From contig JAUWSP010000026.1 in NCBI GenBank assembly GCA_030610025.1, positions 1-12,244 on the forward strand: DNA of 12,244 bases, written 5' to 3'. The translations under genes were made by a program, and so were the position numbers. The stretch's first letter is position 1, and every line of letters begins with the position of its first letter. Shown piece after piece: positions 1 through 12,244 of the stretch. The stretch comes from Acidobacteriota bacterium (GTDB lineage Bacteria; Acidobacteriota; Thermoanaerobaculia; Multivoradales; JAHEKO01). Below the pieces are notes generated by a model. That model saw only the letters and a program-made list of their open reading frames with translations, was not told where the DNA came from and made no database searches.

Positions 1-179
1 AAGATGCGGGCCTGGTGGTACCTGAGTGGGAGCAACGGGCCCGCGGCGCCTCGCGCAAGGTCTACCGATTGACCGCGGCGGGGGAGCAACGGCTTGGTGA
101 GCTGACGACCGAATGGCAGGGCTTTGCCGCCGCCATCGAGGACATTCTCGAAGGCAAAGAGCCCGAGGAGGAGAAATGA
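1..179 (+). CDS. PadR-family transcriptional regulator, C-terminal part (partial at window edge)
   Basis: The reading frame is open from base 3 and ends with TGA at 177-179, giving 58 visible residues. They read as the end of a PadR winged-helix repressor. The wing is seen as EWEQRARGASRKVYRLTAAG, followed by a helix with the usual spaced aromatics (EWQGFAAAIEDIL). The RKVYRLTAAG stretch is typical of PadR proteins, which bind DNA as dimers and often repress an adjacent membrane-protein gene. The last codons overlap the next start in an ATGA junction at 176-179, so the two are almost certainly one operon with coupled translation. The DNA-recognition helix lies outside the window, so operator specificity cannot be judged. 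Confidence 0.85.
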   Translation, partial: DAGLVVPEWEQRARGASRKVYRLTAAGEQRLGELTTEWQGFAAAIEDILEGKEPEEEK

Positions 180-910
180 TAAAACCCGAGAATCGCTACA
201 TCGACGACGTCATGCGCCACGTATTCGCCGCCGAAGAGGACCGCGAGCGGCTCGAGGCCGACCTGCATTCACACTTCAGCGAGGCGGAAGCCGAGGGCAG
301 GGCCCAGCGCGAGATCATCGAGGGTCTGGGAACGCCCGAAGAAGTCGCGACTGCCTTCAATGCCGAACGCGAAATTCGCTACGCCAGCTTCTGGCAGCGT
401 CTGGTGGCATTCATTGGTGACTTCGGACTTCTCGTGTGCCTCACCGTGCCGGCCCTGATCCTGGTTTTCTTGATGGGAGTCGTCGGCGAAGAACCCGGCG
501 ACGTGTCGGTCCTCTGGCTGATCGTCTGTGGATTGCTCTTCCTGGCCCTGCTCGGCCTAGGTATCTTCTATTTCCCGCTTCTCGAGGCGCACTTTGGCAA
601 GACCCTGGGCAAGCACCTGATGCGCATCCGGGTGGTGCGCGAGAACGGTGCGCCCATCGGTCTCGGCCAGGCCTTCGTGCGGCGGCTGTCGCTCTACTTC
701 GAGATGCTGTGGATCGACGCGCTCTTCATCCCGTTCACCGACAAGCGCCAGCGGGCACTCGACATCATCGCCAAGACCATCGTGGCTCGAGAGCCCGGCG
801 AGAGCGCTCCCTGGTGGGCCTATGTTGTGTGCCTGTTCCTGCCAGCCGCAGCGGTGCTTTGTCTCCTTTGTTTGTTCGCACTTTTCGGCCCGGCCTGCCA
901 GGCGATCTGA
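176..910 (+). CDS. HAAS/DUF1700-like plus RDD-family membrane protein, PadR partner
   Basis: This is a 244-aa protein. Residues 1-66 form a soluble acidic helical region (RLEADLHSHFSEAEAEGR, then LGTPEEVATAFNAE) like the HAAS/DUF1700 domains found next to PadR regulators. From residue 70 it is an RDD-type membrane domain: the signature Arg and Asp are R75 and D82 (QRLVAFIGDFGLL), the linker GKTLGKHLMRIRVV follows, and a second conserved Asp is D196 (RQRALDIIAKTIV). Hydrophobic segments are at about 79-101, 112-134, 170-187 and 213-238; the last is an extra C-terminal helix. The ATG at 176 was chosen because it overlaps the PadR stop (ATGA) and has GGAGGAG just upstream; the in-frame ATG at 113 lies inside PadR. 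PadR probably controls its expression. The transported or sensed molecule is unknown. Confidence 0.85.
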   Translation: MIKPENRYIDDVMRHVFAAEEDRERLEADLHSHFSEAEAEGRAQREIIEGLGTPEEVATAFNAEREIRYASFWQRLVAFIGDFGLLVCLTVPALILVFLMGVVGEEPGDVSVLWLIVCGLLFLALLGLGIFYFPLLEAHFGKTLGKHLMRIRVVRENGAPIGLGQAFVRRLSLYFEMLWIDALFIPFTDKRQRALDIIAKTIVAREPGESAPWWAYVVCLFLPAAAVLCLLCLFALFGPACQAI

Positions 911-925
911 CCTTCATCGTGATGT

Positions 926-950
926 AGGGTCGGGGCTCGCCCCCTCCCGC
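926..950. repeat. GC-rich palindrome just downstream of a stop codon
   Basis: GGGGC at 932-936 and GCCCC at 939-943 form a perfect inverted repeat with a two-base centre. The stretch runs on into CTCCCGC. It starts about 15 bp after the RDD gene stop. A similar arrangement (GGGCGGGGC, then CCCTCCCGC) lies just after the Ser/Thr kinase gene at the right end of the window. It could be a transcript 3' end or a dispersed intergenic repeat. There is no T-run, so a standard intrinsic terminator is not supported. Confidence 0.35.
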
Positions 951-981
951 GGTGCCCCTGACTCAAGTCTCGGCCGAGGAG

Positions 982-1010
982 TTTTGACCCCGAATAAGTG
1001 CCTGGCACCT
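982..1010. repeat. REP-like palindromic element with core GTGCCTGGCAC
   Basis: The core GTGCCTGGCAC at 998-1008 is a perfect odd palindrome (5-bp arms around T). It is preceded by TTTTGACCCCGAATAA. I recall very similar strings (TTATTCGGGG next to GTGCCAGGCAC) as dispersed intergenic repeats in several proteobacterial and acidobacterial genomes, where REP-like elements can be linked to RAYT transposases. No such transposase is in this window. Only one copy is visible, so its repeat status rests on recollection. Confidence 0.4.
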
Positions 1011-1020
1011 GCACGACCCT

Positions 1021-1040
1021 CTGAAACGGCCGGCGCCCTA
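1021..1040 (+). repeat. Dispersed copy of the intergenic TGAA(G/A)CGGCCGG repeat
   Basis: CTGAAACGGCCGGCGCCCTA matches the 24-nt unit that is tandemly arrayed at 9174-9303. It lies in the gap between the RDD and STAS genes. Related single copies are at about 4462 and 12145, all in the same orientation. Confidence 0.5.
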
Positions 1041-1112
1041 CCGCCGATCCAGGTAACATCTATCGAGAAAAGCGTCTTCTTCCAGAGGGCATCGGAAAGG
1101 CAGAGCCCGGCA

Positions 1113-1124
1113 AACCCCGGGGTT
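1113..1124. promoter_or_regulatory. Perfect 12-bp palindrome upstream of the STAS gene
   Basis: AACCCCGGGGTT is a perfect dyad centred about 43 bp before the STAS start codon, in what should be the leader or promoter. It could be a regulator-binding site or a small RNA hairpin. A palindrome of this length can occur by chance in GC-rich DNA. No convincing -35/-10 pair was found for this gene. Confidence 0.25.
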
Positions 1125-1160
1125 GGGGTGGCAACCAGACCCAGAGAAAGGGACGACCTC

Positions 1161-1586
1161 ATGAGCGCATGGATCCTTCGCTTTTCTGGCAACAAGATCA
1201 CGATTGGAGCCCGCAGGCCGGTCACTGTCCTTCGCGTTACGGCTGAAGGAGAAGAGACCGAGTTGGAAGTGGTCGAGGTGGGTGGGGAGGAGTATCCAGG
1301 ACTCCGAGATCTCGTTCGGGTCCAGATAGAGCAGGGGCGCCCGCGCCTGATCCTGGATCTGGGCTCCGTAGAACGGATCGACTCCGATGGAATTGGAGAG
1401 GTGGTCGCCGTCTGGCAGCACGCTAAGAACACGGGTGGTGAGTTGGTGCTCGCGAGTCTCCAGCCCAGGGTTCGGGATCTCTTCAGAATCCTCTTCCTGG
1501 ACAAGGTGATTCCGGTTTTCGACTCCTTGCCAGAAGCGGTCCAGTATCTTTCTCCTTCCAGCAACGAACCCCCCGATCGAGCATAA
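1161..1586 (+). CDS. STAS-domain protein (anti-sigma factor antagonist type)
   Basis: This is a 141-aa single-domain protein. The central motif VERIDSDGIGEVVAVWQHAK (residues 70-89) matches the conserved region of anti-anti-sigma factors such as SpoIIAA (DSSGLG). S75 aligns with the serine that is phosphorylated by a cognate kinase in those proteins; the second Ser of the motif is Asp here. GGELVLASLQPRVRDLF and the closing SLPEAVQYL also fit the STAS fold. In partner switching, the unphosphorylated protein sequesters an anti-sigma kinase and a SpoIIE-type phosphatase resets it. The ATG at 1161 was chosen because AGAAAGGGA lies about 8 nt upstream and homology begins after it; the longer open frame from 648 runs through the RDD gene and the repeat-filled gap. 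No RsbW-like kinase is nearby. A candidate phosphatase is about 1.7 kb downstream on the other strand. Confidence 0.85.
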   Translation: MSAWILRFSGNKITIGARRPVTVLRVTAEGEETELEVVEVGGEEYPGLRDLVRVQIEQGRPRLILDLGSVERIDSDGIGEVVAVWQHAKNTGGELVLASLQPRVRDLFRILFLDKVIPVFDSLPEAVQYLSPSSNEPPDRA

Positions 1587-1620
1587 AGACGGCCAACGCC
1601 TCTGGTAATCGGCTCGTCTT
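1586..1620 (+). terminator. Stem-loop after the STAS gene, possible terminator
   Basis: AAGACGGCC at 1586-1594 can pair with GGCTCGTCTT at 1611-1620, giving a 9-bp stem with one bulged T and a 16-nt loop. It begins at the STAS stop codon (TAA 1584-1586) and ends exactly where the next promoter's -35 box starts. A-rich sequence lies at the 5' foot and CTT ends the 3' arm, but no real U-tract follows. Isolating STAS transcription from the XRE gene is plausible. Confidence 0.4.
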
Positions 1621-1655
1621 GACAGTGTTAAGTGTTTACTATACACTTAACACCA
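1619..1655 (+). promoter_or_regulatory. Promoter of the XRE operon, predicting a near-leaderless mRNA
   Basis: A consensus -35 TTGACA lies at 1619-1624. With a 17-bp spacer the -10 is TACACT at 1642-1647. The expected transcription start is about 1654-1655, one or two bases before the ATG at 1656. No Shine-Dalgarno sequence precedes that ATG. Together these suggest a leaderless or almost leaderless transcript. Confidence 0.65.
1625..1653. promoter_or_regulatory. Perfect 11-bp inverted repeat, probable autoregulatory operator
   Basis: GTGTTAAGTGT at 1625-1635 and ACACTTAACAC at 1643-1653 are exact reverse complements, separated by 7 nt (TTACTAT). The dyad starts right after the -35 hexamer, covers the spacer and the -10 box, and ends 2 nt before the start codon. 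Bound protein would block RNA polymerase directly. It is AT-rich in a GC-rich region, and the first gene encodes an XRE-type DNA-binding protein, so self-repression is the natural reading. Half-site centres are 18 bp apart, fitting a symmetric dimer or a pair of dimers. Confidence 0.8.
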
Positions 1656-2018
1656 ATGAAGAGCTTTGGTACCTACGTCCGCAAGCAAAGAGAACGGCTC
1701 CGAGCAGGGGATCCCGAGTATTCCCTCCGGAAGGTCGCTGCCCGCATCGGGGTGGCACCGTCGTTCTTGAGCAACGTCGAGCGCGGCCAGGAGTCTCCGC
1801 CCTCGGAGCCCAAGATTCACGCCCTGGCAAGCGTGCTCGGCGAAGACCCGGACGTTCTGCTGGCCCTGGCCGGCAAGATCTCGACAGACCTGCAGCAGGC
1901 GATCTGCCACCGGCCGCAGGTCTTCGCCCGGCTCATTCGTGAGCTCAAGGACCTCCCCGACCATGCCGTCGAGCAGGTGGAGCAGGCCGCGCGTCAGGTT
2001 CGGGAAGGTCAATGGTAG
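1656..2018 (+). CDS. XRE/Cro-type helix-turn-helix regulator
   Basis: This is a 120-aa protein. Residues 1-67 are a classic XRE HTH: FGTYVRKQRERLR, then SLRKVAARIGVAPSFLSNVE as the two helices of the motif, then ERGQESPPSEPKIHALASVLG. The C-terminal 50 residues are helical (DPDVLLALAGKISTDLQQAI, FARLIRELKDLPDHAVEQVE), like the dimerisation tails of XRE proteins that accompany a second effector gene. The ATG at 1656 is preferred because an upstream in-frame start (1632) would lie inside the operator and promoter and add residues unlike the family. It has no Shine-Dalgarno, in line with the leaderless promoter. The next gene begins 14 nt downstream and is probably co-transcribed. It likely represses its own operon through the adjacent dyad. 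Confidence 0.88.
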   Translation: MKSFGTYVRKQRERLRAGDPEYSLRKVAARIGVAPSFLSNVERGQESPPSEPKIHALASVLGEDPDVLLALAGKISTDLQQAICHRPQVFARLIRELKDLPDHAVEQVEQAARQVREGQW

Positions 2019-2019
2019 A

Positions 2020-2025
2020 AGGAGG
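2020..2025 (+). promoter_or_regulatory. Strong ribosome binding site that fixes the downstream start
   Basis: AGGAGG lies 7 nt before the ATG at 2033 and directly after the XRE stop codon. It supports that ATG over the in-frame ATG at 2012. It also contrasts with the XRE gene itself, which has no such site. Confidence 0.75.
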
Positions 2026-2032
2026 TAGATCC

Positions 2033-3067
2033 ATGATCGAGCTGCAGCGCGACGCCCTGACTTTCTCGTTTCCCGACGTGCATCCCGAGGCCAGACTCTC
2101 CATCGACTTCCAGCGCACCCTGCGTATCCCTGACGACGGCGACGACTATCCCTTGCCGCCCGGGTTGGGGCGCTTTCCCACTCGGCTGGTGGACGACTTC
2201 TCGAAGGAGGTTCCCCGGACCTGGCTCCAACACGGTGGCGTGATGCTGCCGATGTATCAATCTGAAGCCCTCTGGTTGAATTTCGAGTGCGGCTGGGTGG
2301 AGATGCACCGCGCCCAGTATCCGTTCGCCGTCAAGATCGCCGCGGGCAAGATCAACGCCGTCTCAGGCGATGCCTGGAGCGACAGACTTCAGCGTCGTTC
2401 GCAGGACTATATGGTGGCGCCGGAACAGCCCTGGCTGGATGGCTTCTGCGTGGAGAAGGGCTTCATCCGTCAGTTCGTGGCCATGCCGCTCGGCTCCGGC
2501 TACAGCGCCGAAGAGCAGCTCACCGGGGAAGCCGAATTCGGCGGCCTCCAGGTCATCGTCTACCCGATGAAGCGGGAGGTCTTCGAACGTAGGTTCCCGA
2601 AGCGCCCAGAGAGGATTGGCGATGCCAGCGCTCTCTACCGGCACATGGATATGGCGGTCTGCGGTGCTGCAGCCGACATGGCCCTCGCCCCCGGTGGCCG
2701 GATGCATCAGGAAATCTACGAAGATCCCTTTTCCTTCGACGATTGGGATCGCGAGCACACCAGTCGATGCTTCGTCCACCTGGCAAACTCGCTGGTCTGG
2801 CGGGCCATCACGGGTTCGGACCCCCCATCGGTGCCGCCGACTGCGAAGGAGTACAAGAAGGCCGGCCTGCCCTGGTACGACTACTACGACGACAAGGCCG
2901 TCGCGCTGGGCGGCTCCAAGAAGCTCGATGGGCTCGACAGCGTTGCGGTGATGGGCGAGAAGAAGGGTGACGTCCCGCTCCCGGAGAACGAGAGCGTCAC
3001 GCCGGAGAACATCGTCAACCTGCGACGCGGCCTCAACCCCGGCCAGGTCCGTGAGGGGAGCTTCTGA
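2033..3067 (+). CDS. Conserved protein of unknown function paired with the XRE regulator
   Basis: This is a 344-aa protein with no signal peptide or membrane segment, so probably cytoplasmic. Blocks that look strongly constrained are YPLPPGLGRFP (39-49), GGVMLPMYQSEALWLNF (68-84), AGKINAVSGDAWSDRL (104-119), EQPWLDGFCVEKGFIRQFVA (131-150), LTGEAEFGGLQVIVYPMK (163-180), HQEIYEDPFSFDDWD (225-239), SRCFVHLANSLVWRAITG (244-261) and KKAGLPWYDYY (275-285). I recall this block pattern from a widespread uncharacterised family in actinobacteria, myxobacteria and acidobacteria, sometimes labelled integral membrane protein without evident basis. No catalytic motif or nucleotide-binding loop is recognisable. 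The start is set by AGGAGG 7 nt upstream. Expression is presumably under the XRE operator. The 3' end overlaps a minus-strand remnant by 35 bp. Confidence 0.85.
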   Translation: MIELQRDALTFSFPDVHPEARLSIDFQRTLRIPDDGDDYPLPPGLGRFPTRLVDDFSKEVPRTWLQHGGVMLPMYQSEALWLNFECGWVEMHRAQYPFAVKIAAGKINAVSGDAWSDRLQRRSQDYMVAPEQPWLDGFCVEKGFIRQFVAMPLGSGYSAEEQLTGEAEFGGLQVIVYPMKREVFERRFPKRPERIGDASALYRHMDMAVCGAAADMALAPGGRMHQEIYEDPFSFDDWDREHTSRCFVHLANSLVWRAITGSDPPSVPPTAKEYKKAGLPWYDYYDDKAVALGGSKKLDGLDSVAVMGEKKGDVPLPENESVTPENIVNLRRGLNPGQVREGSF

Positions 3068-3269
3068 AGTAATAGCGGCCCACCAGTTCGAGATCTCCGC
3101 TCGAAGACAGGCCACTGAGTCGAATGGAGTAGTCGCCACGCGGTAGCAGCTCGGATGGCAGGATGAGTGTTACGGCGACTCTGTCGCCCGCACTCGCGGC
3201 GCCCAGCTTGCTCTGGGACCACAGCTCGGTGCGATCTAGCCAAACGGCGGAGGTCGTTGTCGAGATCAT
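3033..3269 (-). pseudogene. Remnant of an anti-sigma-like protein (C-terminal domain only)
   Basis: The open frame encodes 78 aa. The core (AVWLDRTELWSQSKL, VTLILPSELLPRGDYSIRLS, GDLELVGRYYF) resembles the C-terminal beta-sandwich of acidobacterial zf-HC2/anti-sigma-like proteins, which normally follows a zinc-binding domain and a membrane helix. Both are missing here. The ATG at 3269 lies 9 nt after the phosphatase stop, with no Shine-Dalgarno. After GRYYF, where family members I recall nearly end, the frame runs ten more residues into the 3' end of the convergent gene before a stop. These features suggest a decayed fragment. A short coupled protein that binds the upstream phosphatase is the alternative. 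The family assignment is by recollection. Confidence 0.45.
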
Positions 3270-3278
3270 GCAGAGGCT

Positions 3279-4004
3279 TCAGGGTAGGGCGGTTTCCGTT
3301 CGCGAGTAGCTGCCTCCGGTGCGTGAAATTGCCACTAGATTGATGTCGTCCGGCAGGGGACGGCCGTGGCTGAAATCGACCGCCTCCGAGACCAGGGAGT
3401 CGATCGAGTTGATGCCATCGGAGGAGAGCAGCAGCACGTCGCCGGGCTCCAGGGTCAGTTTTCGGTAGGGATAGGCCCCGGAGGCCGCTCCGCCAAAGAG
3501 CCCGAGGGGGAATCCCGGAACCTGCACTTCCTCGACCTGGTCCTGGGAGCAGCGCAGCACGAACGGATAGGGCAAGCCGGCGTTGGCTAGAAGCATCTCG
3601 GGGCTGGCGGCACAGATCCTGACCACCGTGGCCGCCACATAGACACCTTTCGGTGTTTTCCGATGCAGGCGAGCGTTCATCGCTGCCAGGATGGAATCGG
3701 GTTCCTGGTTGGTCCTGGCGGTCTCCTGAAAGGCGGCCTTGACGAGCATGGTGATGAGTGCCGCCTCGGCACCGTGTCCCATGACATCGGCAACCAGAAG
3801 GACCACGCACTCGGGTCGACGGATGAGATCGAGGAAGTCGCCCCCCAGGGATTCGCAGGGACAGTACAAGCTGGTCAGCCGAAACTCTCCGATGGGCTTG
3901 GAGACATCCGGCAAGAGACTCTGCTGCACGCTGGCGGCCCTTTCGAGCTGCTCGCGCAACGACCGCTGCAGATCAGGTTTCTGCAGATTCCGCACGCCTG
4001 GCAT
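3279..4004 (-). CDS. SpoIIE-type PP2C Ser/Thr phosphatase (RsbU-like), shortened near the C-terminus
   Basis: This is 241 aa from the chosen start. A short coiled coil (LREQLERAASVQQSLLPD, 16-33) is the usual linker before SpoIIE domains. Phosphatase motifs follow in order: ESLGGDFLDL (51-60), VADVMGHGAEAA (71-82), ANAGLPYPFVL (140-150), GFPLGLF (164-170), LLLSSDGI (191-198) and LPDDINLVAI (217-226). The metal-binding Asp positions D56, D73, D197 and D219/D220 are kept. Only about 20 residues separate SDGI from PDD, where the family usually has about 50-60, so a helical flap region appears deleted. The natural substrate of such enzymes is a phosphorylated STAS protein; one is encoded at 1161-1586. 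The start at 4004 has AAGGGA 9 nt upstream. ATGs at 4070, 4076 and 4298 are in frame; the extra residues are low-complexity and weakly coding-like, so the start is uncertain. Confidence 0.85.
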   Translation of the reverse strand: MPGVRNLQKPDLQRSLREQLERAASVQQSLLPDVSKPIGEFRLTSLYCPCESLGGDFLDLIRRPECVVLLVADVMGHGAEAALITMLVKAAFQETARTNQEPDSILAAMNARLHRKTPKGVYVAATVVRICAASPEMLLANAGLPYPFVLRCSQDQVEEVQVPGFPLGLFGGAASGAYPYRKLTLEPGDVLLLSSDGINSIDSLVSEAVDFSHGRPLPDDINLVAISRTGGSYSRTETALP

Positions 4005-4100
4005 CGATGGCGTTCCCTTGGGGGTGCCCTGCCGGATATCGTGATGGCCTGGTTGCTGTTTGAGTGGCATGGTCATGATGTGTCGGCAGTGGATCGGGGT

Positions 4101-4120
4101 CTCTATATAGAAATATACGT
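4101..4120 (-). promoter_or_regulatory. AT-rich island, possible -10 region for the phosphatase gene
   Basis: CTATATAG and AATATA at 4103-4117 stand out in GC-rich surroundings. On the minus strand they give TATATT or TATATA, both near the -10 consensus, about 100 nt before the preferred start and about 30 nt before the ATG at 4076. No good -35 box sits at the right distance. Confidence 0.3.
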
Positions 4121-4460
4121 ATCTGTCCGAAAACGTTTCGCGGCGCAGTGCGATGGCGGGCTGACGTTGCTGGTTCGATGGCGGAAAAACGCAGGCCTGA
4201 GGCCCCCCTGGCCACCCAGGCTCCTGGGAGCGCCGACCACGGTGCTGGCTTCGAGTTTCTGGTGTATGAGAGGGGAGTAGGGCTTTCCTACAAGACAAGG
4301 GCTCGAACTGCCCCTGCCTTCACCCAGGCGAGTTCGAGAACAGCCGGTGATCGGCAGGTGCCGCCCCCCACAGAGATTGCGGTGTTCCTAACGAGTATAG
4401 GAGCATTGGCGGCTGCCTACCAGTCGGGTCGCCTTCTTGGGACCCAGACCTCGACAGTCC

Positions 4461-4476
4461 GTTGAAGCGGCCGGTG
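4461..4476 (+). repeat. Dispersed copy of the intergenic TGAAGCGGCCGG repeat
   Basis: GTTGAAGCGGCCGGTG shares the TTGAAGCGGCCGG core with the array at 9174-9360. It lies 24 bp beyond the stop codon of the secreted NTF2-like gene. Confidence 0.45.
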
Positions 4477-4499
4477 GGGTCACGTCTCCCGGTTGCCGT

Positions 4500-5054
4500 T
4501 CATCGCGGGACACTGGCAAGAGCGGAGCGAATCTGGTTGGCCAGGCTCTTCATCTGGGTGGAAACCAGCAGTTTCCATTCGTCACCCCGCTTCTTGCACG
4601 AGACGACCTCCATGCCTTCGACCTCGACGTCACCCACCATGAGCCTGTTGCGGGTCAAAACGTGGGCGACGTCTGAGCCCTCCATCACCTCTCCCAGAAC
4701 CTCCATGCCATCGAAATTCACCCGGCCCTGAGCTTCTGCCTGCGCCAGCGCGGCGCGCAAGAAGGAGGCGAAGAACTCCATATCCGATAACGCGGCTATC
4801 GATTGTGCAGTAGCTCCGGCACCGAAGAATGCCTCGCGAAACTGCTGTTGAGCGACAGGTGGGGCAGTATCGATGACACCCAGCGAATGGCGGAACTCGG
4901 TCAACGCGGATGGATCGAAAAACGCAGCGGCCGCGTCGAAGTCACCCTTCTGCAGTTGCTTGAAGAAGGCCTCCGTTGTCTCTGTAGGCGTGGCTCCATA
5001 GACCGAACTGCTCGACAGAATCAGAAGGACAAACGCGATTCGCAAAATCTTCAT
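4500..5054 (-). CDS. Secreted NTF2-like / lumazine-binding-like protein of unknown function
   Basis: This is a 184-aa protein. Residues 1-20 are a signal peptide (MKILRIAFVLLILSSSSVYG) with a probable signal-peptidase I site before ATP; there is no lipobox Cys. The mature part begins with TETTEAFFKQLQKGDFDAAA, a helix typical of NTF2-like or DUF4878-like domains, and ends with a beta-rich half (VAHVLTRNRL, VEGMEVVSCKK, GDEWKLLVS) in which the final DEWK-L resembles the last strand of that fold. It probably acts in the periplasm; no ligand can be predicted. The ATG at 5054 is preferred because GGAG lies 9 nt upstream and the signal peptide begins there; an ATG at 5063 and a GTG at 5069 are in frame. 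It is divergent from the sensor-kinase operon, with 189 bp between the starts. Confidence 0.75.
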   Translation of the reverse strand: MKILRIAFVLLILSSSSVYGATPTETTEAFFKQLQKGDFDAAAAFFDPSALTEFRHSLGVIDTAPPVAQQQFREAFFGAGATAQSIAALSDMEFFASFLRAALAQAEAQGRVNFDGMEVLGEVMEGSDVAHVLTRNRLMVGDVEVEGMEVVSCKKRGDEWKLLVSTQMKSLANQIRSALASVPR

Positions 5055-5095
5055 GGTCGTCATCTCCACAACGCAGTGAGTGCCAGATTCGTTCC

Positions 5096-5101
5096 ATTGT
5101 A
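5096..5101 (-). promoter_or_regulatory. Candidate -10 box for the secreted NTF2-like gene
   Basis: On the minus strand this reads TACAAT, a 5/6 match to TATAAT, and predicts a leader of about 35 nt. The only -35-like hexamer, TTGCAC (revcomp of 5122-5127), is 20 bp away, which is too far for a standard promoter. Confidence 0.35.
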
Positions 5102-5196
5102 TGGGAACCTCTGCCCCCCCGGTGCAAGCCTCTGGGTGCGAAGGCGGAAGTTGCCTCTGCTGACCATCGGCTCCACACGCCGTGCGTAGACCGGGT

Positions 5197-5202
5197 TACA
5201 AT
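5197..5202 (+). promoter_or_regulatory. Candidate -10 box for the sensor-kinase operon
   Basis: TACAAT (5/6 match to TATAAT) lies 41 bp before the TTG start and would give a leader of about 35 nt. No good -35 is seen upstream, so an activator-dependent or alternative-sigma promoter is possible. It forms a divergent pair with the minus-strand TACAAT at 5096-5101. Confidence 0.35.
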
Positions 5203-5228
5203 CTCATCAACGATAGAGAACGAAGCTC

Positions 5229-5237
5229 AGGAGGAGG
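5229..5237 (+). promoter_or_regulatory. Ribosome binding site supporting a TTG start
   Basis: AGGAGGAGG ends 6 nt before TTG at 5244. No ATG or GTG in this frame lies between here and the receiver core VVIVDDD, so this site makes the rare TTG start convincing. Confidence 0.7.
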
Positions 5238-5243
5238 TCAGCC

Positions 5244-7469
5244 TTGTCCGACCGTGGACATGTCGTAATCGTCGACGACGACGCATCCAGCGCCGATACG
5301 CTGCAGGAGCTGCTGGAAAAGGACGGCTATACCGTCGACCAGACAGCCAGCGGCCCGCGAGCCCTCGAGGCCATCGCCAAGGCCAAGCCCAACCTCGTGC
5401 TGGTGGACACCCACCTGGAGCACAGCAATCCGTTCGAGCTGCTCGACGAGCTCGAGCAGAGCTCGAATGCGCTGGACATTCCGGTGATCTTCATGACCAC
5501 CCTCGACGACGCCGAGGCCAAGGTCAAAGGGCTCGAGTCGGGAGACGACCTGATCGTCAAGCCATTCGATGCGCGCGAAGTCCTGGCCCGCATCGAGCGC
5601 CAGGTCACGGTCTCCAAGGTGCGCATGGCCCTGCGCGAGTCGGAGGCCAAGTTCCGGTCGGTCATGGAGTCGGCGATCGACGCGATCATCTCCGGCGACG
5701 CCGAGGGCAGGATCCGGTCGTGGAACAGTGCGGCGACGGCGCTCTTCGGTTTCACCGAGGCCGAGGTGATCGGCCAGCCCATCGACCTGATCATCCCGGA
5801 TCGTTTCCGAGAAGCCCATCAGAAGGGCATTCACAGGGTCAGCTCGGGCGGACCGACTCACGTGATCGGCAAGACCGTCGAGCTCGCGGCCATACGCAAG
5901 GATGGGAGCGAGTTTCCAGTGGAGTTGTCATTGGCGACCTGGTTCCTGGACGACGAGCGCTACTACACCGGCATCATCCGCGACATCAGCGAACGCAAAC
6001 AGGCCGAGCAGAAGTTCCGCTCGGTCACCGAGTCGGCGATCGACGCCATCATCTCGGCCAACCACGTGGGAGAGATCATCAGCTGGAACAAAGCGGCCAC
6101 CGACATCCTCGGCTACACGGAGGAGGAGGCGGTCGGCCAGCGTCTCGAGCTGATCATTCCCGAGCGATATCACGATGCGCACCGCAACGGCATGGCGCGA
6201 TTCACGGCCACAGGCGAGGCCCACGCGATCGGCACCACAGTCGAGCTTGCGGCTCGCACGAAGAGTGGAGAAGAGATGCCGATCGAGCTCTCGTTGTCGA
6301 CCTGGACGGTTCGCGACGAGCGCTACTACACTGGCATCATCCGAGACATCGGCGAGCGCAAGAGGGCGGAGGAAGCCCTGCGTGCGAGCGAGCAGACACT
6401 GCGGGAGCGTCAGGAGGAGCTGAAGACGAAGAACGAGGCGCTGGAAGAGACGCTGAACCAACTCAACGAGATGCACAACCAGCTCATCATCCAGGAAAAG
6501 ATGGCCTCGCTGGGCAAGCTCAGTGCCGGCATGGCGCACGAGCTCAACAATCCGGCCGCCGCCGCCCAGCGCGGTGCCGCGCAGCTGCAGGCCACCTTCT
6601 CTCAATTGCAGGGCATCCAACTGCGGCTCGGCGAACAGAAGCTCGATCAGGCGCAGCTGGACAAACTGGTGGAGCTCTATCGAGTGGCCAGGGAACGCGC
6701 CGAGAGGCCGACCGAGATGAAGGCCATCACCCGTACCGATCGAGAGAACGCTCTCGAGGAGTGGCTGAAAGTGCAGGGCATCGATACCTCGGGAGAGCTG
6801 GTACCGTCTCTGGTCAGCCTCGGCAGTGGGGAGGGCGATCTCGAGGCCTTGACCGAGCTGTTCCCTGCCGAACAGTTCTCGCTGGTGATCGATTGGCTGA
6901 GTTGCATGTACGCGATCTACAGCCTGCTCAGCGAGATCAGCATCGGTTCCGGCCGCATCGCCGAGATCGTCAAAGCGCTCAAGACCTACACCTACATGGA
7001 CCAGGCGCCGGTCCAGTCCGTGGACGTGCGTGAGGGCCTGGAGAACACGTTGATCATCCTCAACAGCAAGATGAAGAGAGGCGTGACGGTGGTCCGGGAG
7101 TATTCGGAAGACCTGCCGGTCATCGAGGCCTACGCGAGCGAGCTGAACCAGGTGTGGACGAACATCATCGACAACGCGACGGATGCCATGGAGGGAGAGG
7201 GCACTCTCGTTGTCAGGACGCGGCGGGACGAACCATGGGTGGTTGTCGAGATCGAGGACAGCGGTCCAGGCATCCCCGAGGAGATCCAGTCGAAGATCTT
7301 CGATCCCTTCTTCACCACCAAGGGTGCCGGGCAGGGCACGGGTCTGGGGCTGAATATCAGCCGCAACCTCATTGGTCAGAAACACTTCGGTGAAATTTCC
7401 GTAGAGTCGAAACCGGGCAGCACATGCTTTGCCGTCCGGCTGCCGATAGATCTCAAGCCCACTGAGTGA
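5244..7469 (+). CDS. Hybrid sensor histidine kinase, REC-PAS-PAS-HisKA(insert)-HATPase
   Basis: This is a 741-aa soluble protein starting at TTG. Residues 6-122 are a receiver: acidic pocket D11-D13, phospho-acceptor D55 (LVLVDTHL), T85 and K106 (VKPF). Residues 134-254 and 255-375 are two PAS/PAC domains, each opening with KFRSV and closing with [11 protein letters not shown] coiled coil (377-425) leads to the H-box [20 protein letters not shown] with H432. About 125 helical residues (445-568) separate it from the second DHp helix ([15 protein letters not shown]); the usual spacing is a few tens of residues. The ATPase domain has the N-box (N640, N644), DSGPGIP (672-678), FDPFFTTK (686-693) and [10 protein letters not shown] (696-705). 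There is no membrane segment, so a cytoplasmic signal is sensed. The N-terminal receiver suggests input from another kinase. Its stop overlaps the next gene as GTGA, so the partner is the receiver/reductase fusion. Confidence 0.93.
5643..6368 (+). repeat. Tandem duplication of the PAS/PAC module (2 x 363 bp)
   Basis: Residues 134-254 and 255-375 of the kinase align without gaps at a 121-residue period, with about 60% identity by manual count. Identical blocks include [15 protein letters not shown] and [12 protein letters not shown]. The unbroken register points to an in-frame tandem duplication followed by divergence. Confidence 0.75.
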
Positions 7470-9157
7470 GCTCGGACGGGATGGAGAAGAGGAACGTGAT
7501 CAAACCAATTGTCATGACGGTCGATGATGAGGCGCATGTGCTCAACGCCATCGCCCGGGACCTGCAGGCGCGTTATCAGAAGGAATACCAGATCGTGAAG
7601 GCGAGCTCTGGCGCCGAGGCGTTGGAGACGGTGCTGGAGTTCAAGCGACGCAACACTCCGGTGGCGCTCTTCGTGGTCGACCAGCGCATGCCGGTGATGA
7701 GCGGCATCGAGTTTCTGACCGAAGCCATCAAGCTCTATCCGGAGTCGAAGAGGGTCCTGCTGACCGCCTACGCCGACACCGATGCGGCGATTGCCAGCAT
7801 CAACGCCATCGGTCTCGACTACTACCTCATGAAGCCCTGGGACCCCCCGGAGGAGCGTCTCTATCCCGTGCTCGACGACCTGTTGAGTGACTGGGCGGCC
7901 AGCGTGCCGGTGCCGTACGACGGCATTCGACTGGCCGGCACCCTGTGGTCGCCGAGCTCGCACAACGTCAAGGAGTTTCTAGCCCGCAGCCAGATACCGT
8001 ACAAGTGGTTGGATATCGAGCGGGACTCCGAGGCAAGGGAGTTGGTCGACTCGATCACGGAAGGTCGGTCTCGTCTGCCGGCACTGTTCTTTCCGGACGG
8101 CAGCACCCTGGTGGATCCAGACCTGCGCACCCTGGCGGACAAGGTCGGTCTCACGACCCAGGCCGAACAGCCCTTCTACGACCTGATCGTCATCGGTGCC
8201 GGCCCTGCGGGTCTGGCGGCAGGTGTCTACGGGGCCTCCGAGGGCCTACGAACGGTGGTGATCGACAAGGATGTGGCCGGTGGCCAGGCCGGGACCAGCG
8301 CCCGGATCGAGAACTACCTGGGTTTTCCCAAGGGCATCAGCGGCGCGGATCTGATGCGACGTGCGGCAACACAGGTGCAGCGCCTCGGCGCCGAGATCCT
8401 GACAGCCCAGGAGGTCACCGGGGTACGAGTCGAGGGTCCCTACAAGATCGTGACCCTGGGTGACGGCAGTGAGCTCAGAAGTCATGCGCTGCTGATCGCC
8501 ACCGGAGTCAAAGTGCGCGAGCTCGATGTGCCGGGCATCGAGCCCTTTGTGGGTGGCTCTGTGTACTACGGAGCGGCAACGTCCGAGGCCGCCCACTACC
8601 AGGGGAAGAAGGTCTTCGTAATCGGTGGCGCCAACTCGGCCGGCCAGGGTGCGATGTTCCTGTCGCGGTTCGCGAGCGAGGTGGCGATCCTGATCCGCGC
8701 GGACTCCCTCAAGGAGAGCATGTCCCAATACCTGATCGATCAGATCGACGGGACGGAGAACATTGCGCTGAAGACCAATACCGAGGTGGCAGCCGTGGCC
8801 GGCACCGATCGTCTCGAGTCACTTACGATCAAGAACAACATTACGGGCGAGACCGAAACGACTCCTGCCGACGCAATCTTCATCTTCATCGGTGCCGTGC
8901 CCCACTCGGACATCGTGGAAGGCATCGTCGAGCGTACCGAGGTCGGGTTCATCCCCACGGGGCAGGACCTGATTCATGATGGCCGTCGGCCGAACAACTG
9001 GAAGCTGAGGCGCGACCCCTTCTTGCTGGAGACCAGCGTGCCGGGTATCTTCGCCGCAGGCGACGTCCGCGAAGGCGTCGTGAGAAGAGTGGCCTCTGCA
9101 GTCGGCGAAGGCGCCGTCTCCGTCACCTTCATCCACAAATACCTCGAAACCGTCTGA
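7466..9157 (+). CDS. Fused response regulator / glutaredoxin-like / thioredoxin-reductase-like flavoprotein, cysteine-free
   Basis: This is 563 aa from GTG 7466. Residues 15-140 are a receiver (D20-D21, phospho-acceptor D72 in FVVDQRMP, T100, K123 in LMKPWD). Residues 152-230 look like a glutaredoxin-fold domain (LWSPSSHNVKEFLARSQIPY, WLDIERD, RLPALFFPDGSTL), with WSPSS where an active Grx has CxxC or CxxS. Residues 237-563 are a thioredoxin-reductase-like oxidoreductase: FAD motif GAGPAGLAAG (244-253), GGQAGTSARIENYLGFP (272-288), NAD(P)H motif VIGGANSAGQGA (385-396) and closing FAD motif FAAGDVRE (529-536). The TrxR CATC site is replaced by YYGAATSEA. No cysteine occurs in the whole protein. 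I recall this fusion being catalogued as fused response regulator/thioredoxin-disulfide reductase. The start overlaps the kinase stop (GTGA); ATG 7481 and GTG 7496 (GGAG 9 nt upstream) are alternatives. Kinase-controlled flavoenzyme activity is inferred. Confidence 0.9.
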   Translation: MSSDGMEKRNVIKPIVMTVDDEAHVLNAIARDLQARYQKEYQIVKASSGAEALETVLEFKRRNTPVALFVVDQRMPVMSGIEFLTEAIKLYPESKRVLLTAYADTDAAIASINAIGLDYYLMKPWDPPEERLYPVLDDLLSDWAASVPVPYDGIRLAGTLWSPSSHNVKEFLARSQIPYKWLDIERDSEARELVDSITEGRSRLPALFFPDGSTLVDPDLRTLADKVGLTTQAEQPFYDLIVIGAGPAGLAAGVYGASEGLRTVVIDKDVAGGQAGTSARIENYLGFPKGISGADLMRRAATQVQRLGAEILTAQEVTGVRVEGPYKIVTLGDGSELRSHALLIATGVKVRELDVPGIEPFVGGSVYYGAATSEAAHYQGKKVFVIGGANSAGQGAMFLSRFASEVAILIRADSLKESMSQYLIDQIDGTENIALKTNTEVAAVAGTDRLESLTIKNNITGETETTPADAIFIFIGAVPHSDIVEGIVERTEVGFIPTGQDLIHDGRRPNNWKLRRDPFLLETSVPGIFAAGDVREGVVRRVASAVGEGAVSVTFIHKYLETV

Positions 9158-9173
9158 TCCGCGCCCACCCTCG

Positions 9174-9360
9174 ATTGAAGCGGCCGGCGCCCCCACAATT
9201 GAAGCGGCCGGACCTGTGCCGGCCGAAGCCTTACGCCCGCCCACGGCGCCCCCACAACTGAAACGACCGACGCCCCAAAACTGAAACGACCGACGCTCCC
9301 ACAATTGAAGCGGCCGGACCTATGCCGGCCGAAGCCTTGCGCCCTCCCACGGCACCCCTG
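9174..9360 (+). repeat. Intergenic repeat array with two hairpin-bearing long units
   Basis: Five adjoining units begin A(T/C)TGAA(G/A)CG(G/A)CCG(G/A). They lie at 9174-9197, 9198-9256, 9257-9279, 9280-9303 and 9304-9360. Units 1, 3 and 4 are short (23-24 nt, ending CGCCCC-CA). Units 2 and 5 are long (about 57-59 nt) and nearly identical to each other. Each long unit carries a perfect 7-bp stem, CGGCCGG / CCGGCCG, with a 7-nt loop (ACCTGTG or ACCTATG), then GAAGCCTT. The array fills most of the 248-bp gap between the flavoprotein gene and the Ser/Thr kinase gene. The hairpins could protect or end the upstream transcript, but no T-tract follows. Reading frames across it contain stops and are not protein-like. 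Confidence 0.8.
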
Positions 9361-9385
9361 TCAACCGACCGCCATGCAGTACAAT
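9358..9385 (+). promoter_or_regulatory. Candidate promoter of the Ser/Thr kinase gene
   Basis: CTGTCA at 9358-9363 (4/6 to TTGACA), a 16-bp spacer, and TACAAT at 9380-9385 (5/6 to TATAAT). The predicted start near 9392 leaves a very short leader of about 14 nt, in which only a weak AGG (9391-9393) precedes the ATG. The promoter lies directly after the last repeat unit. Confidence 0.5.
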
Positions 9386-9405
9386 TCTCCAGGTAAGAAT
9401 CAATC

Positions 9406-12111
9406 ATGATCGGCACGACGGTTTCTCACTATCGGATCACCGGCAAGCTCGGTTCGGGCGGCATGGGTGAGGTGTACGAAGCCGAGGACACCGAACTGGG
9501 ACGGAGAGTTGCCCTCAAGGTTCTGCCAGAGCACTTGGCCTCCGACCCTGATCGTCTCGAGCGATTCAGGCGCGAAGCGCGAGCCGTGGCGTCACTGAAT
9601 CATCCAAACATCGTCACGCTCCATTCGGTAGAGGAGTCCGATGGCCGTCACTTCCTGACCATGGAGCTGGTGGACGGGAAGTCTCTGGATGCGCTCATCC
9701 CGGAGGCCGGCTTCGATCTCGAGCGCCTCTTCGAGCTGGCCATCCCGATCGCCGATGCTCTTTCAGCGGCCCACGAGAAGGGGGTCGTCCATCGGGACCT
9801 CAAGCCCGCCAACGTCATGGTGGGTGAGGACGGGCGCCTCAGGATTGTCGACTTCGGTCTCGCCAAGCTCTGGGAAGAGAGTCTCGAGGACACCGATACC
9901 GAGCTGGCCACCGAAGGGCTGACCAAAGAAGGTGTCGCCATGGGAACGGCGCCCTACATGTCACCGGAGCAGCTCCAGGGCAAGGAGATCGACCACCGGT
10001 CCGACCTGTTCTCTCTCGGGATTCTGCTCTACGAAATGACGACGGGGAAGCGGCCCTTCAAGGGCCAGTCCGCGATCGAGCTGGCGTCCGCGATCCTCAA
10101 AGACAACCCGGACTCGGTCACCGACGTCCGCGAAGGAGTGCCTCGGCACCTGGGACGAATCATCCGGCACTGCCTGGAGAAGGATCCGGATCTGCGCTTT
10201 CAGTCGGCCAAGGATGTGCGCAACGAGCTGGCAGGCTTGAAAGGGGAGGTGGAATCGGGTGAGGTGCCGCTCAGCACCGGAGGGATGCCGGCGGTTGCCG
10301 CGCCGGTATCTGCCTCGAAGCAGGCCAGGCCGGCTTGGTTGATCCCCGGCCTGGTGGTCGCAGCCGTGATCGTCGTTGCCGGACTCATCTGGATGATGCG
10401 GGGCAGGGAAGAAGCGCCACCGGCCGAGACATCTGTTGCCGCTGGAGCCGCCGCCGAGGCAGAACATAAGAAGATCGTGGTCCTGCCCTTCGAGAACCTG
10501 GGCACGGAAGAGGAAGCCTACTTCGCTGCCGGCATCACCGACGAAATCACCGGGCGCCTCGGTTCGGTGAGCGGGCTCAGAGTGATCTCGCGCAAGAGTG
10601 CCCTGCACTATGCCGATACCGATAAGACCATTCAGCAGATCGGCGAAGAGCTTGGCGTCGGCTACGTGCTTGAAGGCACGGTGCGATGGGCGAGCAGCTC
10701 GGAAGGCTCCAGCCGCGTGCGTATCACGCCGCAGCTCATCCGAGTGGCCGACGATAGCCAACTCTGGTCGAATACCTACGACCGGGTCATCGAAGACATC
10801 TTCGAGGTGCAGTCGGACATCGCCACCCAGGTGATCGATGAGCTGGGCATCACGCTGCTCGAGCCCGAGCAGCGGGCGGTGGAGAGCCGACCGACCGAGA
10901 ACATCGAGGCCTACCAGGCCTATCTCCGCGGCCTGCAGTACGCCAACCATCCGGATTCCACCGAGCGCAACATGCGGCTGGCCATCGAGATGTTTCAACG
11001 CGCCTCCGAGCTCGACCCCTCCTTCGCTCAGGCCCACGCCTGGCTCAGCCACGCCCAGGCGCGCTATTACTGGTTCGGTCACGATCTGTCCGAAGCGCGA
11101 ATGCAGCTCGCCCGACAGTCGGCGGCGCAGGCCCTGGCCCTCGATCCGGATCTGCCCGAGGGGCACGTAGCGATGGGCTATGTGCATTACTACGGTTCCA
11201 GGGACTACGACAGCGCACTGAAGGAGTTCGCCCTGGCCGAGCAGTCCAAGCCCAATGACAAGGAGATCATCGCCGCCATCGGCTACATTGCGCGGCGACA
11301 GGGCGAGTGGGAATTGGCGGCGACGCAGTTCGCCAAAGCACTGGAGCTCGATCCGCAGGACGCGAATCTCACCATCGATCTGGGTGGCGCTCATCAGCGG
11401 CTGCGTCGCTACGAGGAGGCCGACGCGGCATTCAATCGGGCTATTTCGATGTTCCCAGACCAGAATCGGGCTTACGGTGACAAGGCCTTGAATCTATGGC
11501 AGTGGCACGGCGATGCCTCACTGACGCGGCCGATTCTCGAGCAGATGCCGGTGCAGGACAGCGAGGACGCGCTCTTTGCCTGGTGGAGGCAGGAGCTCTG
11601 GGAACGAGATTTCCGCCAGGCCGCGGAGCGGTTGGCAGTGGCGCCAAACGACTTCTTCCAAGCCAATGTCATTCAAATCATGCCCAAGGCGTTCCTGGAG
11701 TCCTACACCTACTTTCTGGCTGGAGACAGCGAGCGCTCGCAGGCCGCCGCCGAGAAGGCGCTGCCGCACATGGAGCGCTACGTGAGGGAGCGGCCCGATG
11801 ATCCCTTCTCCCACATTGGTTACGGACTCATGCTGGCGGCCGTGGGGCGCCATCAGGAGGCCGTGAGCGAAGGCGAGCTGGCGATGGAGATCCTCCCCCT
11901 GGAGAGGGATGGGATCTACGCTCCCTATCTCATCTACTGGGTGGCCAGTATCTACAACATGGTCGGCGACTACGACGCGGCCCTCGACCAGCTCGAGACG
12001 CTGCTGTCGAACCCCACGACCGTATCGGTGGCAACGCTGGAGGGCAACGTCGAGTGGGACAAAGTTCGCGACTTGCCTCGCTACCAGCAGCTCGTCGAGA
12101 AGTATCGGTAA
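9406..12111 (+). CDS. Membrane Ser/Thr protein kinase with TolB-like domain and TPRs
   Basis: This is a 901-aa protein. Residues 9-275 are a complete Hanks-type kinase: glycine loop GSGGMGEVY (16-24), K38, E57, catalytic HRDLKPANV (129-137, D131, N136), DFG (149-151), activation-loop end MGTAPYMSPEQ (179-189) and R264 near the end. A linker leads to one membrane helix at about 311-331 (WLIPGLVVAAVIVVAGLIWM). Outside the cytoplasm, residues 356-480 form a TolB-N-terminal/FlgO-like domain (KIVVLPFENLG, AAGITDEITGRL, GVGYVLEGTVR, QLWSNTYDR). About seven TPR-like repeats occupy 500-870, clearest at 526-551, 569-595, 604-633, 638-668, 672-697 and 819-855. The order kinase-TM-TolB-TPR is common in Acidobacteriota. 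It probably senses envelope or periplasmic protein partners and phosphorylates cytoplasmic targets; the ligand is unknown. It appears monocistronic. Confidence 0.95.
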   Translation: MIGTTVSHYRITGKLGSGGMGEVYEAEDTELGRRVALKVLPEHLASDPDRLERFRREARAVASLNHPNIVTLHSVEESDGRHFLTMELVDGKSLDALIPEAGFDLERLFELAIPIADALSAAHEKGVVHRDLKPANVMVGEDGRLRIVDFGLAKLWEESLEDTDTELATEGLTKEGVAMGTAPYMSPEQLQGKEIDHRSDLFSLGILLYEMTTGKRPFKGQSAIELASAILKDNPDSVTDVREGVPRHLGRIIRHCLEKDPDLRFQSAKDVRNELAGLKGEVESGEVPLSTGGMPAVAAPVSASKQARPAWLIPGLVVAAVIVVAGLIWMMRGREEAPPAETSVAAGAAAEAEHKKIVVLPFENLGTEEEAYFAAGITDEITGRLGSVSGLRVISRKSALHYADTDKTIQQIGEELGVGYVLEGTVRWASSSEGSSRVRITPQLIRVADDSQLWSNTYDRVIEDIFEVQSDIATQVIDELGITLLEPEQRAVESRPTENIEAYQAYLRGLQYANHPDSTERNMRLAIEMFQRASELDPSFAQAHAWLSHAQARYYWFGHDLSEARMQLARQSAAQALALDPDLPEGHVAMGYVHYYGSRDYDSALKEFALAEQSKPNDKEIIAAIGYIARRQGEWELAATQFAKALELDPQDANLTIDLGGAHQRLRRYEEADAAFNRAISMFPDQNRAYGDKALNLWQWHGDASLTRPILEQMPVQDSEDALFAWWRQELWERDFRQAAERLAVAPNDFFQANVIQIMPKAFLESYTYFLAGDSERSQAAAEKALPHMERYVRERPDDPFSHIGYGLMLAAVGRHQEAVSEGELAMEILPLERDGIYAPYLIYWVASIYNMVGDYDAALDQLETLLSNPTTVSVATLEGNVEWDKVRDLPRYQQLVEKYR

Positions 12112-12122
12112 CCAGGAATATC

Positions 12123-12170
12123 AGGGCGGGGCATGTCCCTCCCGCTGAAGCGGCGGGCGTCCCTGCCGGC
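12123..12170. repeat. GC-rich palindromes and a degenerate repeat copy after the kinase gene
   Basis: GCGGG and CCCGC (within 12126-12144) can pair around GCATGTCCCT. The string CTGAAGCGGCGGGCG (12145-12159) is a degenerate copy of the TGAAGCGGCCGG repeat, followed by TCCCTGCCGGC, which echoes the long-unit hairpin. It lies between two convergent genes, so it may serve as a bidirectional transcript end, but no T-run is present. Confidence 0.4.
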
Positions 12171-12173
12171 CAA

Positions 12174-12244
12174 CTATCGAACTGCCTGGAACTCGTGATC
12201 ATCAGTCTCGTACTTCGGGTAGATGAAGCTCGTTCGGACCTGTG
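12174..12244 (-). CDS. C-terminal tip of a minus-strand gene (partial, unidentified)
   Basis: On the minus strand one frame is open from the window edge to TAG (12174-12176). It ends with TSFIYPKYETDDHEFQAVR. Its codons are G/C-ending at most positions away from the stop (AGC TTC ATC TAC CCG AAG TAC GAG), as in the neighbouring genes, and the composition is protein-like. Only about 23 codons are visible, so no family can be named. It would be convergent with the Ser/Thr kinase gene, about 62 bp apart. A chance open frame is possible. Confidence 0.4.
   Translation of the reverse strand, partial: QVRTSFIYPKYETDDHEFQAVR

Follow-up and report, generated by a model that had tools for sequence, protein, structure and literature searches.

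How a response regulator built around a thioredoxin reductase-like flavoprotein could operate when the cysteine pairs of both its redox domains are missing is the question raised by a gene at positions 7466..9157 (+ strand) of a 12,244-nucleotide stretch of Acidobacteriota DNA (assembly GCA_030610025.1, contig JAUWSP010000026.1, positions 1 to 12,244), hereinafter the window. Its 563 codons, counted from GTG 7466, specify a receiver, a glutaredoxin (Grx)-like domain, and a thioredoxin reductase (TrxR)-like flavoprotein joined in one chain. The initial annotation, made from the letters alone, described the product as devoid of cysteine and therefore probably mislabelled as thioredoxin-disulfide reductase. 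Here, we report that the absence of both dithiol pairs is a trait of the family and propose, at slightly less than an even chance, that the protein may be an NAD(P)H flavin oxidoreductase that is gated by phosphorylation, donates electrons to a non-thiol acceptor, and forms the output side of a two-component system.

Translation of 7466-9157 gave an open frame whose 563-residue product, on recounting, contains no cysteine, exactly as claimed, and both motifs named as substitutes for the dithiols, WSPSS and YYGAATSEA, were recovered in the sequence. WSPSSH occupies residues 161-166 of the glutaredoxin-like domain (7946..7963, +), where a cysteine-bearing sister protein, L121, has WCPDCH; YYGAATSEA covers residues 367-375 of the TrxR-like part (8564..8590, +) and, in alignment, replaces the redox-active CATCDG. 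Codons TCG, TCG, GGA, and TCC stand at the dithiol positions 162, 165, 369, and 373, respectively, and three of the four require two base changes to become a cysteine codon. Relatives were collected by a search in which at least 8000 proteins were scored, while cysteine counts cover the 120 listed, sharing 79-100% identity and including the window's own entry. Since the same pairs are absent in these relatives and three codons are two changes away from cysteine, a sequencing error is excluded, and, with the frame open, so is a pseudogene. The true start is probably GTG 7496, giving 553 amino acids, because most of the listed relatives have this very length and those inspected begin at the equivalent residue; the nucleotides just 5′ of it are AG-rich. 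The cysteine count is the same for either start.

A second, broader sample was assembled from 117 loci, 111 of which matched and 106 of which were retained as full-length fused genes (the window, L001, among them; L022, L027, L048, and L052 were left out because their open reading frame calls began upstream of a stop), the lowest identity being about 51%. The TrxR pair is absent throughout: position 369 is Gly and position 373 is Ser in every one of the 120 listed relatives, and in the 106 loci 369 is invariably Gly and 373 never Cys. At the glutaredoxin positions, cysteine was met first in 1/120 and second in 3/120 of listed relatives, and in 0/106 and 4/106 of loci, respectively, both together never. 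Among 57 dithiol-less sequences taken into the phylogenetic tree (see below), 369 is Gly in 49 and Cys in none, 373 is never Cys, and cysteine appears at 162 in two and at 165 in six. No two cysteines lie within five residues of one another in any of the 120 listed relatives; three of the 57 tree rows (L096, L119, and one of the two L124 proteins) carry a CXXC elsewhere and none at the old sites. The two flavoproteins of L124 (5284-9754), both with cyclic-nucleotide domains, are convergent, and an open reading frame of 324 amino acids is found between them. Cysteine totals in the 120 listed relatives are none in 19, one in 74, and two in 27. Thus, the lack of both dithiol pairs is a family trait; the complete freedom from cysteine, which we considered as the notable feature and rejected, is incidental, since it is encountered in just 19 of the 120. 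The suspicion that cysteine loss might be general therefore held for the dithiol pairs and failed for cysteine as such, a single Cys being present at position 339 in 88 and at position 378 in 47 of the 107 rows of the receiver-form alignment (which contains the window twice).

The origin of this trait was approached with a midpoint-rooted maximum-likelihood tree of the TrxR part comprising 102 rows, drawn from thioredoxin reductase-type families other than ferredoxin-NADP reductases proper. Its dithiol-less sample of 57 includes 33 receiver forms chosen for spread, 20 labelled as cyclic-nucleotide forms, three divergent members, and one orphan (L219). All of them form one clade with support 100/100 on a long stem (0.72). 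According to domain matches, 34 carry a receiver (the 33 and divergent L132), 18 a cyclic-nucleotide-binding domain, two are cut by contig ends, and three have no recognised input: 18/20 labelled cyclic-nucleotide forms show the Pfam domain, L130 and L134 end at the contig edge with no input domain visible, L131 and L133 match neither input domain (E 0.001), and L219 has no match. The sister of this clade is a group of 13 cysteine-bearing Grx-TrxR rows (clade 100/99, pairing 96/87); canonical TrxR rows, an AhpF row, and six YpdA rows fall outside both. The latter six constitute a separate clade (100/100), so common descent of dithiol loss with the YpdA branch, considered as a candidate, finds no support in the tree. 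The base of the dithiol-less clade is poorly supported, and receiver rows L114 and L232 do not fall within the main receiver group; input domains may have been swapped on several occasions. Most simply, a Grx-TrxR fusion would have lost both dithiols once, its core then being joined to receiver or cyclic-nucleotide-binding inputs with at least one exchange of them, the direction of change resting on parsimony because the root was placed at the midpoint.

Both states of the fusion coexist in the window's own phylum. The search of 297 genomes returned receiver forms, proteins in which a cyclic-nucleotide-binding domain precedes this core, and L121, a Grx-TrxR fusion of 423 residues from the same taxonomic order as the window, with WCPDCH and CATCDG in place; L226, from a genome of the same genus, is a second cysteine-bearing fusion (WCPDCR and CATCD). 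WCxxC and CxxCD are kept in 120/120 listed relatives of L121. Proteins of this kind (about 413 amino acids) share with the window protein the two-domain core and a C-terminal insertion, at 40-43% identity in five members, but retain both dithiols, and L121 has no receiver; some entries are named FAD-dependent oxidoreductase. One sequence, P0188 (699 amino acids), is a cysteine-bearing Grx-TrxR with a C-terminal carboxymuconolactone-decarboxylase domain. Another kind of about 400 amino acids is represented by L220-L224 (L220 with glutaredoxin WCPYC and TrxR CATC), and since these five rows cluster with canonical TrxR, away from the L121 kind, the fusion possibly arose more than once. The dithiol-less family itself spreads over Acidobacteriota, Chloroflexota, Cyanobacteriota, Actinomycetota, Deinococcota, Pseudomonadota, and others; phage records gave only weak matches to the query, one of which covers >80% of it at 33.5% identity.

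The receiver (residues 16-128, 7511..7849, +, Pfam PF00072 Response_reg) has its phospho-acceptor D72 at 7679-7681 (+), and D20, D21, D72, T100, and K123 are present in 106/106 loci, the window included. Pfam recognises Glutaredoxin (PF00462) at residues 163-209 with 26.0 bits (cut-off 22.9) and Pyr_redox_2 at residues 238-549. Within the TrxR-like FAD/NAD(P)H domains (residues 237-562, 8174..9151, +), the FAD-binding GAGPAG (residues 244-249, 8195..8212, +) has G244, G246, P247, and G249 invariant in alignment, and the NAD(P)H-binding GGANSAGQ (residues 387-394, 8624..8647, +) was located by alignment; G244, G246, G249, and G387 are invariant across 61 sequences, five cysteine-bearing sisters among them. 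The assertion that the phosphorylatable receiver and both cofactor motifs are intact is thus supported.

Four other columns distinguish the 57 dithiol-less rows from the 13 cysteine-bearing sisters and 25 TrxR-type rows. Position 374 (8585-8587, +) is Glu in 57/57 vs Asp in all 13 and all 25; 541 (9086..9088, +), shortly past the C-terminal FAD motif GDVR, is Arg in 57/57 vs Gln in 12/12 sisters with a letter there and 25/25 TrxR-type rows; 258 is Ser in 57/57 vs Arg in 13/13 and 25/25; 394 is Gln in 57/57 vs Glu in 13/13 and 17/25. Column 374 adjoins the CXXC site, column 541 the C-terminal FAD motif, and column 394 the NAD motif; the Asp of TrxR in column 374 is presumably its acid-base residue. 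Since each of the four positions is uniform in all 57 rows, the site looks rebuilt by fixed replacements rather than drifted. The HRR motif, which contacts the 2′-phosphate of NADPH, behaves differently: it is kept in 24/25 thiol-type rows and reads IRA in the window and VRG (30), VRA (9), or similar in the 57, but the cysteine-bearing sister already has VRG in 13/13. This change was accordingly discarded as a part of dithiol loss; a shift in NADPH preference may be older, HRR being already replaced in the sister.

That both domains lack their characteristic catalytic pairs would suit a pseudoenzyme, its flavoprotein core serving as a dimerisation scaffold without redox role; such an outcome appears very improbable to us, since the FAD and NAD(P)H motifs together with positions 374 and 541 are invariant in the rows compared, drawn from several phyla, which is unexpected if cofactor chemistry were dispensable. 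It is the combination of complete cofactor motifs, no cysteine pair, and fixed new residues at the site that suggests a flavin oxidoreductase instead.

The name under which such proteins circulate is probably wrong. Public records call them FAD-dependent oxidoreductase, thioredoxin reductase (NADPH), or cyclic nucleotide-binding domain-containing thioredoxin-disulfide reductase, and many of the 120 listed relatives are thioredoxin reductase (NADPH) in their source records. Doubt about the thioredoxin-disulfide reductase label proved well founded: the window protein scores 239 bits against TIGR01292 (TrxB), whose curated cut-off is 343.45, and the pairs are lost family-wide. It shares with TrxB the GxGxxG FAD and NAD(P) glycine motifs but has no CXXC, IRA for HRR, Glu for Asp, and Arg for Gln; it likewise remains below the cut-off of TIGR04018 (YpdA; 77.4 vs 339.9 bits), and from glutaredoxin it differs by the absence of the active-site Cys (CXXC or CXXS) in spite of the Pfam match. 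Rhodococcus plasmids encode annotated cyclic-nucleotide-binding proteins with the same core in which that domain replaces the receiver, the R. pyridinivorans one having YYAATNQEAR at the TrxR site; relatives of the same build belong to the dithiol-less clade.

Among published systems, the TrxR fold without CXXC is described for TrxR-like ferredoxin/flavodoxin-NADP reductases and YpdA/Bdr in PMC10294844, where a CXXC-free enzyme of the former kind, Bacillus cereus FNR3, is reported as bacillithiol disulfide reductase. In this respect the statement of the initial annotation that the protein "cannot do dithiol chemistry" is right for an internal dithiol relay, which is excluded without CXXC, and too strong for disulfide reactions in general. 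The combination of receiver and thioredoxin reductase was termed Mycobacterium-like (PMC5847659), and a TrxB output class of response regulators was tabulated (PMC9953108); these census entries share the receiver and the TrxR-like output with the window protein, and the sections of them available to us mention neither missing dithiols nor the glutaredoxin-like domain. Open-licence PMC literature yielded no study on this protein, no report of missing dithiols, and no function test. The architecture is thus already catalogued, and the clade-wide loss of both dithiols appears undescribed in the literature searched.

Evidence for the signalling role comes from the neighbourhood. Directly upstream, 5244..7469 (+) encodes a receiver-PAS-PAS histidine kinase of 741 amino acids, recognised by Pfam and motif, with HATPase_c and an AHELNNP box containing the phospho-acceptor H432 (6537-6539, +); its stop codon shares bases with GTG 7466 and is separated from GTG 7496 by 26 bases. 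Profile searches placed such a kinase within 3 kb of 86/106 receiver forms (70 within 300 bases), always on the same strand, its order being variable (55 downstream, 31 upstream), and in 4/4 further receiver loci. None was detected within 3 kb of the 20 labelled cyclic-nucleotide forms from the window's phylum. Flanks of at least 2 kb are available to either side in 17 of these 20 and in 58 of the 106 receiver loci. The difference (86/106 vs 0/20) gives a Fisher p of 1.6e-12 with loci treated as independent and uncorrected for relatedness. Because the kinase accompanies receiver forms, the receiver would be its substrate and the flavoprotein the output.

The opposite direction of signal flow is conceivable too. 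The protein might be a redox sensor without useful turnover, in which the occupancy of flavin or NAD(P)H governs the receiver and the signal exits via the receiver or the kinase; one core joined to two different regulatory domains and the lack of a constant acceptor gene at the loci are compatible with that. However, the bias of the kinase toward receiver forms suits the receiver as an input side, and the invariance of Glu where TrxR has Asp exceeds the needs of ligand binding, so we hold a pure sensor to be unlikely, if still a serious rival.

Plasmid-borne members offer a parallel arrangement. In plasmids of Deinococcus, Caballeronia, Streptomyces, and Tsukamurella, the oxidoreductase gene and that of an ATP-binding protein have 4 bases in common, and all four partners (L236:6680-8080, L237:6653-8056, L239:6650-8110, and L241:6656-8140) combine HATPase_c with a cyclic-nucleotide-binding domain, which is also the input found instead of the receiver in the other flavoprotein forms; statements about the TrxR-site motif of six named plasmid proteins exclude L239 and L241. 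In Nostoc, the nearest downstream gene annotated as ATP-binding protein is 2.6 kb off. A gene for a UBP-type zinc finger is situated downstream in Streptomyces and Tsukamurella, where in the latter a mycothiol-dependent dehydrogenase follows, and upstream of the Rhodococcus cyclic-nucleotide form. On the Rhodococcus pyridinivorans plasmid (L240:1-6693), this form is adjacent to clpB, genes for a J-domain protein and a CbpM-type chaperone modulator, trxA, and the UBP zinc finger, a neighbourhood which looks like a protein-stress cluster.

These neighbours bear on a third explanation, namely, disulfide chemistry without an own CXXC: flavin would reduce a low-molecular-weight disulfide or the cysteine of a partner, in some members via a single Cys. 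The zinc-finger protein beside several members or the thioredoxin encoded nearby, in company with clpB in R. pyridinivorans, could be such partners, a mycothiol-dependent dehydrogenase is encoded after the Tsukamurella set, FNR3 provides a precedent (PMC10294844), and Cys378 gives some members a thiol near the old active site. Yet both dithiol pairs are gone while the sister lineage retains both, the YpdA rows lie apart from the family in the tree, and the window protein, with Tyr at 378 (8597-8599), contains no cysteine at all. We judge this possibility quite unlikely.

Returning to the phosphorylation-gated flavin oxidoreductase, the best reading includes a redox flavoenzyme instead of a DNA-binding domain as the output. 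The upstream kinase would phosphorylate D72; phosphorylation would alter the packing of the receiver on the flavoprotein dimer and hence activity; hydride would pass from NAD(P)H to FAD, and electrons would go directly from the flavin to an acceptor other than thioredoxin—oxygen, quinone, ferredoxin/flavodoxin, or a dedicated partner. E374 and R541 might tune the rebuilt flavin site, and the glutaredoxin-like domain may persist in a structural or docking role.

Several observations weigh against this scheme. The profile used to detect the kinases was itself derived from kinases of these loci; no kinase lies within 3 kb at 20 of the 106 receiver loci, 13 of these 20 extending at least 2 kb to either side, and just one of the three divergent members has a kinase nearby. 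A constant third gene as a clue to the acceptor was sought and rejected, none being found across the 106 and 20 loci: the UBP-type zinc finger is near just 10/106 receiver and 4/20 other forms, and its family is unmatched in the window's own genome (84.6% complete). A single cysteine at 378, four residues beyond E374, occurs, in addition to the receiver rows counted above, in 26 of the 57 tree rows, and some of its bearers may keep one-thiol chemistry beside the old site. The placement of E374 and R541 at the flavin is deduced from the TrxR alignment rather than from distances, and in the flavin-reducing conformation the loop 367-375 would face away from the flavin. In favour of the scheme, the AlphaFold model of the window protein is 1.7 Å from flavin-reducing Lactococcus lactis TrxR (5mh4) and 6.8 Å from the flavin-oxidizing form (5mjk), the sister's model being intermediate (3.5 and 4.4 Å); relative to flavin-oxidizing 5w4c, the sister's model is at 2.2 Å and the window's at 4.6 Å. 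The choice of conformation by AlphaFold therefore counts little. As a separate matter, Cys378 could be the hallmark of a subgroup that operates with one thiol.

Should the name be wrong, reconstructions of redox networks counting these genes as thioredoxin reductases err. If the gated oxidoreductase does exist, a two-component system steers a redox reaction bypassing transcription, two-component and cyclic-nucleotide signalling gain a directly controlled redox enzyme among their outputs, and the cysteine-bearing sister becomes a natural comparison for a thiol enzyme turning into something else. Extended to the whole family, the idea would be that a widespread flavoenzyme dropped dithiol chemistry once and became a signalling output, with NAD(P)H-flavin flow to a dedicated non-thiol acceptor switched by phosphorylation or cyclic nucleotides without a transcription step; this generalisation is possible but doubtful.

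The remaining part of the window contains further genes. A STAS domain (PF01740) is encoded at 1296-1538 (+) within the open reading frame 648-1586, and a SpoIIE-type phosphatase at 3279-4298 on the opposite strand; the two proteins possibly make a partner-switching pair. The 351-amino-acid open reading frame 2012-3067 (+), with no Pfam or NCBIfam match (E 0.001), overlaps the end of a helix-turn-helix regulator gene (1632-2018). Downstream of the flavoprotein gene, 9406-12111 (+) encodes a Ser/Thr protein kinase with TPR repeats.

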